DNA of 5,965 bases, taken from assembly GCA_017523185.1 (NCBI GenBank), contig JAFWXB010000112.1, forward strand, positions 1 to 5,965. The letters are read 5' to 3'. Under the pieces are notes generated by a model that was not told where the DNA came from, ran no database searches, and saw only the letters and a program-made list of their open reading frames with translations. This document shows, piece after piece, positions 2,585 through 5,965 of the stretch. The stretch comes from Lachnospiraceae bacterium. Lineage in GTDB: Bacteria > Bacillota_A > Clostridia > Lachnospirales > Lachnospiraceae. Every line of letters begins with the position of its first letter. Positions within the stretch are counted from its first letter, which is position 1. A program made the position numbers and the translations under genes.

Positions 2585-3694
2585 TTATGAAATGTTACTA
2601 AAATTTACAGGTAAAATGAGATAAATAAATTTTCCCTCATCATCTTTAATAAAACATGGTGCTTTCGGATTTACCATGTAAAGACAAATTTCTTCGTTGT
2701 CAATTACACGAAGTGCATCAATAAAGAATTTTGGATTAAAACCAATTAAAATATCTTTGCCGTCTTTTTCAATGTCAATATCTTCATTCATAGAACCACT
2801 AAGAGAAGTCATTTTTAATGACATATTATGGTCTGTAATGTGCATAATAATTGGTTTTTTATCACCCTCTTTTACAAGAAGTGTAGAACGGTCAATACAG
2901 TTTAATAATTCCTTTTTGTTAATTCTAACTTTTGTTTCATAGTCAGAAGAAAGCATTTGGTCGATTTTAAAATAATCTCCTTCAATTAAGCGAGAAACAA
3001 CTGTTGTGGATTCAAAATCAAATACTACATGATTGTGTGAAAAATACATAATTACATCATCTTCTATGCTACTTGAAATAATTTTACTAATTTCTTGTAG
3101 TGTTTTTCCAGGAACAATCACTCGTTTAAATGCATAATTATCTTTTAAAGCAATATTACGAATAGAAATACGATGTCCATCCAAAGAAACAACTCTCAAT
3201 TCATTTTCGTTAATTTCAAATAATTCACCTGCCATAATTTTATTATTATCATTGTCGGAAATAGAAAAAATAGTTTGTCGAATTACTTCTTTCAACGTAA
3301 ATTGACTCATTACAACGGAATCATTTTTTTCAATGTATGGTAAAACAGAAAAATCATCTCCTGCTTTTCCAAGAATGGTAAATTGTGCTTTTTCACAAGA
3401 AATTGTTGTTTGGAATGTTTCGTTTGTTTCGATTGTAACATCATTATCCGGAAGTTTTCTAACAATTTCAGAAAAAATCTTTGCATCTAACGCAATAATT
3501 CCTCGTTCTAAAATATTACCTTCAATTCTTGTTTCTATACCTAGTTCCATATCGTTTGCAATTAATTTTATTTCATGTGTAGAAGCATCTACTAAGATGC
3601 ATTCTAAGATAGGCATAGTCGTTCTTGTAGGTACTGCCTTAGAAACAATATTTACTCCACGAAGTAAGTGTGATTTTGAACAAATAAATTTCAT
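2585..3694 (-). CDS. dnaN: DNA polymerase III beta subunit (sliding clamp)
   Basis: DnaN forms the ring-shaped homodimeric clamp that tethers the replicative polymerase and recruits repair and regulatory proteins. I place the start at the ATG at 3694, giving 369 residues beginning MKFICSKSHLLRGVNIVSKA, the normal length and N terminus. AAAGGAG lies 6 nt upstream. The frame is open to an ATG at 3784, but those 30 extra codons translate the DnaA boxes and the trio run (five leucines from CTA x5) and are not real protein. Three clamp domains of about 120 residues each fit the length. The C-terminal region GFNPKFFIDALRVIDNEE and the terminal LPV (361-363) are typical. After LPV the tail is NFSNIS, where Arg or Lys is common; this is probably harmless. 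Confidence 0.97.
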   Translation of the reverse strand: MKFICSKSHLLRGVNIVSKAVPTRTTMPILECILVDASTHEIKLIANDMELGIETRIEGNILERGIIALDAKIFSEIVRKLPDNDVTIETNETFQTTISCEKAQFTILGKAGDDFSVLPYIEKNDSVVMSQFTLKEVIRQTIFSISDNDNNKIMAGELFEINENELRVVSLDGHRISIRNIALKDNYAFKRVIVPGKTLQEISKIISSSIEDDVIMYFSHNHVVFDFESTTVVSRLIEGDYFKIDQMLSSDYETKVRINKKELLNCIDRSTLLVKEGDKKPIIMHITDHNMSLKMTSLSGSMNEDIDIEKDGKDILIGFNPKFFIDALRVIDNEEICLYMVNPKAPCFIKDDEGKFIYLILPVNFSNIS

Positions 3695-3707: not shown

Positions 3708-3715
3708 CGGTTTGG

Positions 3716-3740
3716 ATATAATATATTAATTAATTTATTT
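3716..3740. other. DNA unwinding element (A/T tract)
   Basis: Twenty-five consecutive A/T bases, including the palindrome ATTAATTAAT, lie directly beyond the DnaA-trios and before the dnaN ribosome binding site. Position relative to trios and boxes matches the unwinding site characterised in B. subtilis. That melting starts here is inferred. Confidence 0.8.
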
Positions 3741-3754
3741 AGTAGTAGTAGTAG
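3740..3754 (-). other. DnaA-trio array (five perfect trios)
   Basis: The plus strand reads TAG five times in a row; the minus strand is CTACTACTACTACTA. Read 3' to 5' this is GAT x5, the DnaA-trio motif on which the DnaA AAA+ domain assembles along single-stranded DNA. It is separated from the nearest DnaA box (3759-3767) by only GTCC on the minus strand, the geometry known from B. subtilis. Five uninterrupted identical trios is a very clean example. Confidence 0.9.
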
Positions 3755-3758
3755 GGAC

Positions 3759-3775
3759 TGTGGATAAGTGGATAA
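3759..3775 (-). promoter_or_regulatory. Two abutting DnaA boxes adjoining the trios
   Basis: On the minus strand a one-mismatch box TTATCCACT (3775-3767) runs into a perfect TTATCCACA (3767-3759), sharing one base. The pair points at the GTCC spacer and the trios. By analogy with B. subtilis boxes 6 and 7, it would position the DnaA filament for strand opening. Confidence 0.85.
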
Positions 3776-3778
3776 GTG

Positions 3779-3807
3779 CCTCAAACCCTTGATTTTACAG
3801 GGTTTTC
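3779..3807 (-). repeat. Boxless origin element, copy A (minus strand)
   Basis: Read on the minus strand, this starts GAAAACCCTGTAAAATCAA and continues GGGTTTGAGG. It contains no DnaA box but is nearly identical to two plus-strand copies in the upstream lobe (5707-5735 and 5909-5937), differing by one substitution and two single-base gaps up to GGGTTT. AAACCCT and AGGGTTT can form a 7-bp stem around a 9-nt loop (GTAAAATCA on the minus strand). It lies between box 3810-3818 and the abutting pair next to the trios. There is no T-run suited to termination of dnaA. I do not recognise a binding protein. Confidence 0.8.
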
Positions 3808-3809
3808 AT

Positions 3810-3852
3810 TGTGGATAACTATGTGGATAAAATGTGGATAACTTGTGGATAA
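3810..3852 (-). promoter_or_regulatory. Four closely spaced minus-strand DnaA boxes
   Basis: Perfect boxes at 3810-3818, 3822-3830, 3833-3841 and 3844-3852 start 12, 11 and 11 bp apart, roughly one helical turn. DnaA molecules bound here would lie on the same DNA face and point towards the trios. The last box pairs with the plus-strand box at 3870 to form an inverted repeat. Confidence 0.9.
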
Positions 3853-3878: not shown

Positions 3879-3912
3879 TAGTTATCCACAATTTTTTCTG
3901 AGTTATCCACAA
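3869..3912 (+). repeat. 44-bp block shared with upstream lobe, dnaN-side copy
   Basis: This block matches 5769-5812 in the same orientation with 3 mismatches (3877/5777, 3898/5798, 3899/5799) at an offset of exactly 1900 bp. It spans three boxes of this lobe (3870, 3882, 3903). The identity covers the inter-box bases, so it is more than shared box sequence. Confidence 0.88.
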
Positions 3913-4001
3913 TTTTTTCTGAGTTATCCACAATTTTTTCTGAGTTATCCACAATTTTTTCTGAGTTATCCACAATTTTTTCTGAGTTATCCACAATTTT
4001 T
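3882..4001 (+). repeat. 21-bp tandem DnaA-box array (5 perfect units plus partial)
   Basis: Units start at 3882, 3903, 3924, 3945 and 3966 and are identical: TTATCCACA, then A, six T, then CTGAG. A sixth, starting at 3987, keeps the box but has T5 followed by CCC. The 21-bp period is two helical turns, so all boxes and T-tracts lie on one face, and the phased T-tracts should bend the DNA. Perfect identity suggests recent expansion. A minus-strand frame across it reads as a repeating SEKIVDN peptide, but this is an artefact of the 7-codon period. Confidence 0.95.
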
Positions 4002-5635: not shown

Positions 5636-5660
5636 AAAAAAAGGGTTAAAAAATGACCCC

Positions 5661-5763
5661 AAAAAGCAAAATTGTGGATAACTGTGTAAAAAAGTTATCC
5701 ACAAAAGAAAACCAGTAAAATCAAGGGGTTTAGAGATTGTAAAAAAGTTATCCACAAGTTATC
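5661..5763 (+). repeat. 103-bp origin repeat, copy 1
   Basis: Identical to 5863-5965 apart from position 5684 (G) versus 5886 (A), at a 202-bp offset. It contains an inverted box pair (5672-5683 and 5693-5704), the boxless element and one further complete box. Sequence to its left (5601-5660) is a weaker match to 5803-5862, so the duplicated unit is probably about 200 bp with uneven divergence. Confidence 0.95.
5707..5735 (+). repeat. Boxless origin element, copy B (plus strand)
   Basis: This reads GAAAACCAGTAAAATCAAGG and then GGTTTAGAG. It matches copy A (3807-3779, minus strand). It lies between a box at 5695-5703 and paired boxes at 5748-5756 and 5759-5767, the same order as around copy A. 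AAACC and GGTTT could pair, but less strongly than in copy A. Confidence 0.8.
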
Positions 5764-5768
5764 CACAG

Positions 5769-5812
5769 GTTATCCAAATAGTTATCCACAATTTTTTGGG
5801 AGTTATCCACAA
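5769..5812 (+). repeat. 44-bp block shared with dnaN-side lobe, upstream copy
   Basis: Matches 3869-3912 with 3 mismatches, one of which turns a box into TTATCCAAA (5770-5778). Boxes at 5782 and 5803 keep the 21-bp spacing and T6 tract of the tandem array, with GGGAG in place of CTGAG. Confidence 0.88.
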
Positions 5813-5862
5813 TGAAAATGAGATTGTGGATAACTTATGAAAAAAGTGGAAAAATTGCTCTT

Positions 5863-5965
5863 AAAAAGCAAAATTGTGGATAACTATGTAAAAAAGTTAT
5901 CCACAAAAGAAAACCAGTAAAATCAAGGGGTTTAGAGATTGTAAAAAAGTTATCCACAAGTTATC
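5863..5965 (+). repeat. 103-bp origin repeat, copy 2 (reaches window edge)
   Basis: The second copy of 5661-5763 with one substitution. It is still matching at the last base of the window, so the repeat may be longer and more copies may follow. Confidence 0.95.
5909..5937 (+). repeat. Boxless origin element, copy C (plus strand)
   Basis: Identical to copy B, within the second 103-bp repeat. It is again preceded by a box (5897-5905) and followed by a box at 5950-5958 and a box cut off by the window edge. Confidence 0.8.

Follow-up and report, generated by a model that had tools for sequence, protein, structure and literature searches.

The window, that is, the whole stretch of 5,965 nucleotides analysed here, comes from a Lachnospiraceae bacterium and carries on its minus strand gyrB, recF, a gene with an S4 domain (Pfam S4_2), dnaN and dnaA. 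The names gyrB and recF were given by inspection and the S4 gene was assigned through Pfam; dnaA and dnaN have search support. The closest DnaA proteins found, with up to 79% identity, belong to Roseburia, Agathobacter and other Lachnospiraceae. Arrays of DnaA boxes flank dnaA on both sides, and among these boxes a distinct element occurs three times, once in the dnaA-dnaN lobe beside the unwinding system (copy A) and twice in the rpmH-dnaA lobe (copies B and C; Table 1). The original prediction described these three copies as devoid of a DnaA box yet having boxes on both sides. The coordinates confirm both the positions and strands it gave and this description for A, B and C, and no TTATCCACA-like 9-mer is present inside any of the three copies. 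Copies B and C had been ascribed to a duplication, which is indeed there as a 202-bp tandem repeat (5638-5763 and 5840-5965, identical at 116 of 126 positions) inside which the window ends. The duplicated unit in the rpmH-dnaA lobe (5638-5965) is a block of DnaA boxes together with the element.

Table 1. Replication genes, copies of the element and neighbouring DnaA boxes, with positions counted from the first letter of the window.
Feature	Positions	Strand	Remarks
dnaN	2585..3694	-	ORF and similarity
DnaA-trio run	3740..3754	-	five CTA triplets on the dnaA strand; adjoins the spacer 3755-3758 and the AT-rich region towards dnaN
Tandem DnaA boxes of the basal unwinding system	3759..3775	-	TTATCCAC-TTATCCACA; first base 3775, 19 bases from the centre of copy A
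Copy A	3779..3807	-	exact core CCTGTAAAATCAAGG at 3787-3801, centre 3794; dnaA strand GAAAACCCTGTAAAATCAAGGGTTTGAG; flanked by DnaA boxes at 3810-3818 and 3759-3775
Distal DnaA boxes	3810..3852	-	at 3810, 3822, 3833 and 3844, about one per helical turn
dnaA	4018..5361	-	ORF and similarity
DnaA box before copy B	5695..5703	+	16 bases from the centre of copy B; next box starts 53 bases on, at 5748
Copy B	5707..5735	+	core CCAGTAAAATCAAGG at 5712-5726, centre 5719; sequence of B and C GAAAACCAGTAAAATCAAGGGGTTTAG
First DnaA box after copy B	5748..5756	+	followed by a box at 5759-5767
DnaA box before copy C	5897..5905	+	next box 5950-5958
Copy C	5909..5937	+	core 5914-5928; within the second unit of the 202-bp tandem duplication

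At about 3715-3775 we found the components of a basal unwinding system, namely tandem DnaA boxes, a GC-rich spacer, repeated DnaA-trios and AT-rich DNA, and the tandem boxes are taken as the equivalent of boxes 6 and 7 of Bacillus subtilis. The dnaA strand reads [TTATCCACA]-ATG-AAAACCCTGTAAAATCAAGGGTTTGAGGCAC-[TTATCCAC][TTATCCACA]-GTCCC-[TACTACTACTACTA] around copy A. Because of this order (box, copy A, tandem boxes), copy A fills the gap between the distal DnaA box and the unwinding boxes, after which come the GC spacer, the DnaA-trios, the AT-rich DNA and dnaN. From the centre of copy A it is 16 bases to the end of the nearest distal box, whose start precedes the first unwinding-system box by 43 bases; the spacing between boxes is 43 bp across copy A and 53 bp across copy B. 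The arrangement resembles the incC/BUS of B. subtilis, where tandem boxes, a spacer, DnaA-trios and AT-rich DNA lie before dnaN; the distal phased box is given there as about 44 bp upstream, against 43 bp in the window (from the accessible parts of PMC6669920 and PMC8287927). Between dnaA and copy A lie six further DnaA boxes with an exact 21-bp pitch (3882, 3903, 3924, 3945, 3966 and 3987), a pitch that corresponds, within 3882-3995, to about two helical turns. Taken alone, the window is weaker evidence than it looks. The similarity between its box-masked lobes is not beyond chance: their longest shared word has 13 bases, whereas 500 shuffles gave 10.3 on average and up to 16. The significance of the element comes from the comparative work.

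We gathered a related set of 170 distinct dnaA-dnaN intergenic regions, mostly from Lachnospiraceae, in 168 of which a scoring search placed the unwinding system. Identical intergenic duplicates were left out, as were L025 and L077 (unwinding-system call far from dnaN) and L110, L051, L067, L069, L079, L087, L100 and L197 (no usable match to dnaA or dnaN). In the 132 loci retained after thinning the 168, the 34-base loop upstream of the first unwinding box had a mean information content of 0.304 bits per column, against 0.046 for the upstream baseline, and 19 of its 34 columns exceeded the highest baseline column. Across the 168 related origins this conservation is centred 18 bases upstream of the unwinding-system DnaA boxes. 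The pattern consists of AAA-(C/T)CC at about -30 to -24, an AT core at about -18 and AGG at -13 to -11, followed nearer the box by TT at -9/-8 and by GGG adjoining the box. A wider clostridial set of 60 loci was drawn from the phylum, apparently outside the family to judge from DnaA identities of 44-51%; in the 56 usable loci (four scored below 18) the loop was weakly conserved (0.128 vs 0.068 bits). An active exclusion of DnaA boxes from the loop was not borne out, depletion being no greater than chance (20 loci against 18.7 expected). Some of the related origins, among L043-L061 and L074-L080, have a conserved AAATAGTATAATAG where the others have the element (16 loci with TATAAT), which is possibly a promoter inside the unwinding region.

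The distance of the distal DnaA box proved to follow the helical repeat. Counted from the first unwinding box, the main start positions of distal boxes in the thinned loci are -43, -53 to -55 and -63 to -66. The test of phasing needed the nearest box to lie 35-80 bases upstream, which left out 24 of the 132 related and 12 of the 56 wider loci (box nearer, farther or absent). At a period of 10.5, the nearest distal boxes were phased to the first unwinding box with R 0.74 in 108 of 132 related loci, related genomes being treated as independent, and with R 0.80 in 44 of 56 loci of the wider clostridial set, where the peaks were at -43/-44 and -54 to -56; the p values likewise count kin genomes as independent. 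A recurrent reverse-strand box was also noticed in the wider set, near -75 to -73. In B. subtilis incC, a distal box is needed at least 44 bp away and must be helically phased, which was read as a DNA loop (PMC6669920, as far as that text was available). The natural phasing in relatives matches these genetic data and thus lends independent evolutionary support to the looping model. The same source, in its available part, describes the native DNA upstream of box 6 as replaceable by artificial sequence plus a distal box, in contrast to the conserved element found in the loop here; such an element is therefore dispensable in some bacteria.

The frequency of the element genome-wide was taken from 62 related genomes, all of the genus of G003 (the genome of L004, Roseburia porci). 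A search with a 22-base consensus found the specific core of copies A-C at many places, and six of the 20 matches that were fetched sit between murC and dnaD, beside tandem DnaA boxes; Pfam supports a DnaD-type protein (DnaB_2) at L270 and a Mur ligase domain at L265. There are 75 occurrences of the exact core CCHGTAAAATCAAGG, spread over 37 of the 62 genomes, whereas the reversed control gave three; by coordinates 13 of these 75 are at dnaD. When a DnaA half-box was required together with the core within 5-34 bases, 17 places were obtained in 17 of the 62 genomes, 15 of them at dnaD, and none with the control.

We then considered dnaD loci gathered by protein similarity, irrespective of the element. 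Matches were obtained in 58 of the 62 genomes, and 50 loci were examined, 49 with a usable upstream region (L312 was left out for its short one). Tandem DnaA boxes are present at all 49 dnaD promoters at a score of at least 15 of 19 (0.1 expected), and 38 score at least 18, which suggests at the level of sequence that DnaA may control the helicase-loader gene. The core is matched at 11 or more of 15 bases in 31 of the 49 promoters (1.0 expected from shuffles), and a clear element is absent from 12 of the 49 in this first genus. Alignment shows the element flanked by the boxes on one side and by an extended -10-like promoter on the other. Its centre is found 9-10 (three sites), 18-19 (18 sites), 27-29 (nine sites) or 38 (one site) bases from the first base after the boxes. 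These offsets are phased with R 0.91 at a period of 10 (31 sites) and with R 0.90 after thinning (27 of 43), related genomes being treated as independent. Origin loops with the element mostly show distances of 16-17, 26-29 or 37-38 bases between its centre and the closest upstream box edge, so that the spacings at origins are within 1-3 bases of those at dnaD. The dnaD promoters of a second genus (20 of 20, from 20 genomes) retain the tandem boxes but lack the element, the best matrix score there being 6.6, and the dnaD module is therefore lineage-bound. Across L311-L381, the boxes before dnaD are tandem TTATCCACA-TTATCCACA or close variants in both genera (49/49 and 20/20 regions).

The origins were scanned with a matrix derived solely from the dnaD elements (31 sites, reduced to 18 by thinning). 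At a threshold of at least 12 bits it gave 24 matches in 7 kb of unwinding-system loop, or 3.3 per kb against 0.04 in shuffled sequence, and 21 matches in 85 kb of the rpmH-dnaA lobe, or 0.247 against 0.025 per kb; coding sequence gave four matches in 225 kb of dnaA and one in 157 kb of dnaN. At 11 bits or more, 28 of the 29 dnaA-dnaN matches were centred at -18 or -19. Copy A, with 35.4 bits, is at the top of the 29 dnaA-dnaN matches listed, and copy B, with 28.3 bits, is second to L184 (30.1) among the rpmH-dnaA matches; the scan covered 480 bases of the latter lobe, and copy C lay outside it. Some rpmH-dnaA matches are the -35 sequences of rpmH, and rpmH-promoter-like matches (TTGACTT/AAGTCAA) were removed from this lobe before distances to boxes were counted. 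There remained 14 sites of at least 13 bits; a box is in range at 12 of them, and for 10 the distance from the centre to the nearest box edge is 15-19 bases; at 11 bits (19 sites) this holds for 12 of 17. Box edges at 16-20 bases numbered 15 of 50, against a control mean of 4.2 and a maximum of 14 in 300 draws. An iterated motif of the EM style shifted towards AT-rich sequence and absorbed the rpmH -35 region, and its counts were not used.

The element also occurs apart from origins and dnaD. Tandem DnaA boxes are lacking nearby at 27 of the 40 distinct exact-core sites that were fetched. Exact cores lie about 85-135 bp from Phage_integrase genes (Pfam) in L292, L288 and L308, and a near-exact one lies by an integrase-like gene in L272. 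Others are near htpG (Pfam HSP90) and near prfA, lysS or rdgB (named by inspection), and cores are also found at gene 3' ends. Such sites may be used by mobile elements as well, or they may have functions beyond replication. Near the cores in L281, L305 and L309 there are short direct repeats similar to arm sites. Upstream of htpG, in L293, L296 and L304 (and L275), the core is close to a CIRCE-like inverted repeat. The original prediction called the sequence an origin element and expected related origins to carry it and the rest of the chromosome to be poorer in it. Related origins do carry and conserve it, for the most part as a degenerate version, and across whole genomes it is rare, with 75 exact cores in the 62 genomes. 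However, it is not confined to origins, and the name is too narrow for a sequence that also stands before dnaD and elsewhere, at several places by integrase genes.

What was observed at these loci is conservation, a set position, helical phasing and, in one genus, recurrence at dnaD. On this basis we think it probable that the element is a duplex recognition site for a further protein, one that cooperates with DnaA. The site (X site) would be the double-stranded pseudo-palindrome AAACCC(T/A)GTAAAATCAAGGGTTT, which we infer to be bound by a protein X distinct from DnaA. It would form a composite module in which about 16-20 bp, or this distance plus whole helical turns, separate the X-site centre from the edge of a DnaA box, and this set spacing would keep X and DnaA each on a fixed face of the DNA. 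Indeed, it is the fixed register with DnaA at three kinds of place that leads us to propose two proteins on one duplex face. In the dnaA-dnaN lobe, where the X site would occupy the short loop from the distal DnaA box to the first unwinding box, X would most likely bend or bridge this loop, thereby delivering DnaA from the distal box to the unwinding site and affecting initiation. At dnaD, the same module upstream of the promoter would tie expression, and so transcription, of the helicase-loader gene to DnaA and X. The proposal of a site for an additional origin-binding factor, which the original prediction had made, is thus well supported, by conservation at origins and by a helical phase with DnaA boxes that is kept at two types of locus. 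As to the identity of X, we put forward only tentatively that the Lachnospiraceae of the Roseburia/Agathobacter group possess a dedicated, undescribed sequence-specific factor, phased with DnaA at the origin and the dnaD promoter, whose sites are exploited by mobile elements.

Several other explanations were considered. X might be the single HU-type protein, with the element serving as an IHF-like site that bends the loop lying between DnaA boxes. In E. coli oriC, IHF binds between DnaA boxes, near the unwinding region, and copy A holds an exact WATCAANNNNTTR (window 3782), the IHF consensus; moreover, the dnaD-derived matrix conserves its reverse, YAANNNNTTGATW, in register, the AT content across the loop oscillates with a period of about 10.5-11 bp, and sites of the element beside integrase genes are a classical setting of IHF. 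We nevertheless regard this explanation as unlikely. Copies B and C miss the consensus by one base, and the exact consensus occurs in only two of 168 unwinding-system loops (0.23 expected) and in none of the 56 further clostridial loops. Unlike the E. coli site, the core is longer, pseudo-palindromic and common to the dnaD promoter. Among 30 genomes searched for HU-family genes, 27 have one, two have two and one has none; in the genus that carries the dnaD element, each of the 16 genomes searched contains a single such gene, which looks like ordinary HU, and no second, IHF-type DNABII protein was found in these 16. The B. subtilis protein HBsu is described as required for DUE melting but is also called sequence-independent in the same review (PMC13220808, in the portion available). 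A still less likely reading is that the element is the core of attachment sites of tyrosine recombinases, the copies at oriC and dnaD being scars or free targets. The cores near integrase genes and at gene 3' ends speak for it, and a conserved core with variable flanks would suit an overlap region. On the other hand, attachment sites predict neither the helical register in 31 of 49 dnaD promoters nor the fixed place beside the unwinding system, and neither the window nor the surroundings of the dnaD sites inspected showed an integrase-like ORF. It appears to us very unlikely that the binder is DnaD, which would then regulate its own gene and be positioned next to DnaA at oriC. The element is present at both dnaD and oriC beside DnaA boxes, and DnaD is reportedly recruited to DnaA-bound regions in B. 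subtilis, to go by the title of a 2011 paper by Smits; but the second genus has dnaD with no element at the dnaD promoters, and the DnaD of B. subtilis shows poor interaction with duplex DNA and a preference for single strands, according to the available part of PMC10201434.

The original prediction also allowed for a structured DNA or RNA element and noted that the AAACC/GGTTT arms are able to pair. The pairing is confirmed: as single-stranded DNA, copy A forms a stem of 7 bp (-5.2 kcal/mol, z -2.3) and copy B one of 5 bp (-2.0 kcal/mol, z -1.6). Complementarity in the origins is clearly in excess solely about the centre at -18 (z 4.0), an effect that is real but modest, and a stem of at least 6 bp in any register is found at 11 of 40 exact-core sites, where about 0.7 were expected. 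A hairpin, whether a cruciform or an RNA structure such as a terminator or processing site, is nonetheless very unlikely in our view. A terminator-like match is present on the plus strand at 3787-3802 (0.2 expected), but an intrinsic terminator with GC stem and T run is limited to copy A on that strand, with none at B or C, and Rfam gave no match at gathering thresholds. At 21 of the 40 exact-core sites the best stem in any register is 4 bp or less, there is no excess of G-U pairs (183 vs 176 expected), and no excess of dyads exists within the closest group (z -0.5) or in the wider clostridial set (z -1.9); generic palindromes in the rpmH-dnaA lobe have no clear preferred distance to DnaA boxes. 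A dyad at -18 that is not in excess in the closest group and comes without a G-U excess fits a dyad-symmetric duplex site better than an RNA hairpin, and the helical phasing likewise favours a duplex protein site acting with DnaA over a hairpin. The 11 sites with stems of at least 6 bp keep a structural role open as the less favoured reading, and the interpretation given in the original prediction is, as a whole, partly supported.

The protein site acting together with DnaA that we prefer can also be compared with the DnaD recognition element (DRE), likewise a non-DnaA element of Firmicutes oriC and tied to helicase loading. The DRE consists of single-stranded TnnT repeats opposite the trios, whereas the element of the window is a longer conserved sequence on the other side of the DnaA boxes (comparison with the available part of PMC10201434). 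Indeed, the position of the element upstream of the DnaA boxes does not correspond to TnnT repeats opposite DnaA-trios. A non-DnaA element in this loop is not described in the parts available to us of PMC6669920, PMC8287927, PMC7561715, PMC10201434, PMC13220808, PMC11019786 and PMC4447404. Among the top papers listed for the core sequence and for Lachnospiraceae, Roseburia or Agathobacter origins none looked relevant, most subscription journals lying outside the coverage. The papers listed for BUS and DnaA-trios, for cruciform or conserved origin elements, for DnaA-box phasing and for dnaD promoters with DnaA boxes likewise included none that, by its listing, described the element. Absence from the literature searched is not proof of being unpublished.

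Sites for accessory proteins are well known in E. coli origins. If a dedicated factor of this kind exists, origin firing and the supply of helicase loader would answer to one two-protein switch in the bacteria that carry it. A DnaA-phased element common to the origin and the dnaD promoter offers a direct way to a missing partner of DnaA. Apart from the element, the phasing seen in 108 mostly Lachnospiraceae and 44 further clostridial origins supports the looping model drawn from B. subtilis genetics. The named carriers of the element include common gut anaerobes, for example Roseburia.
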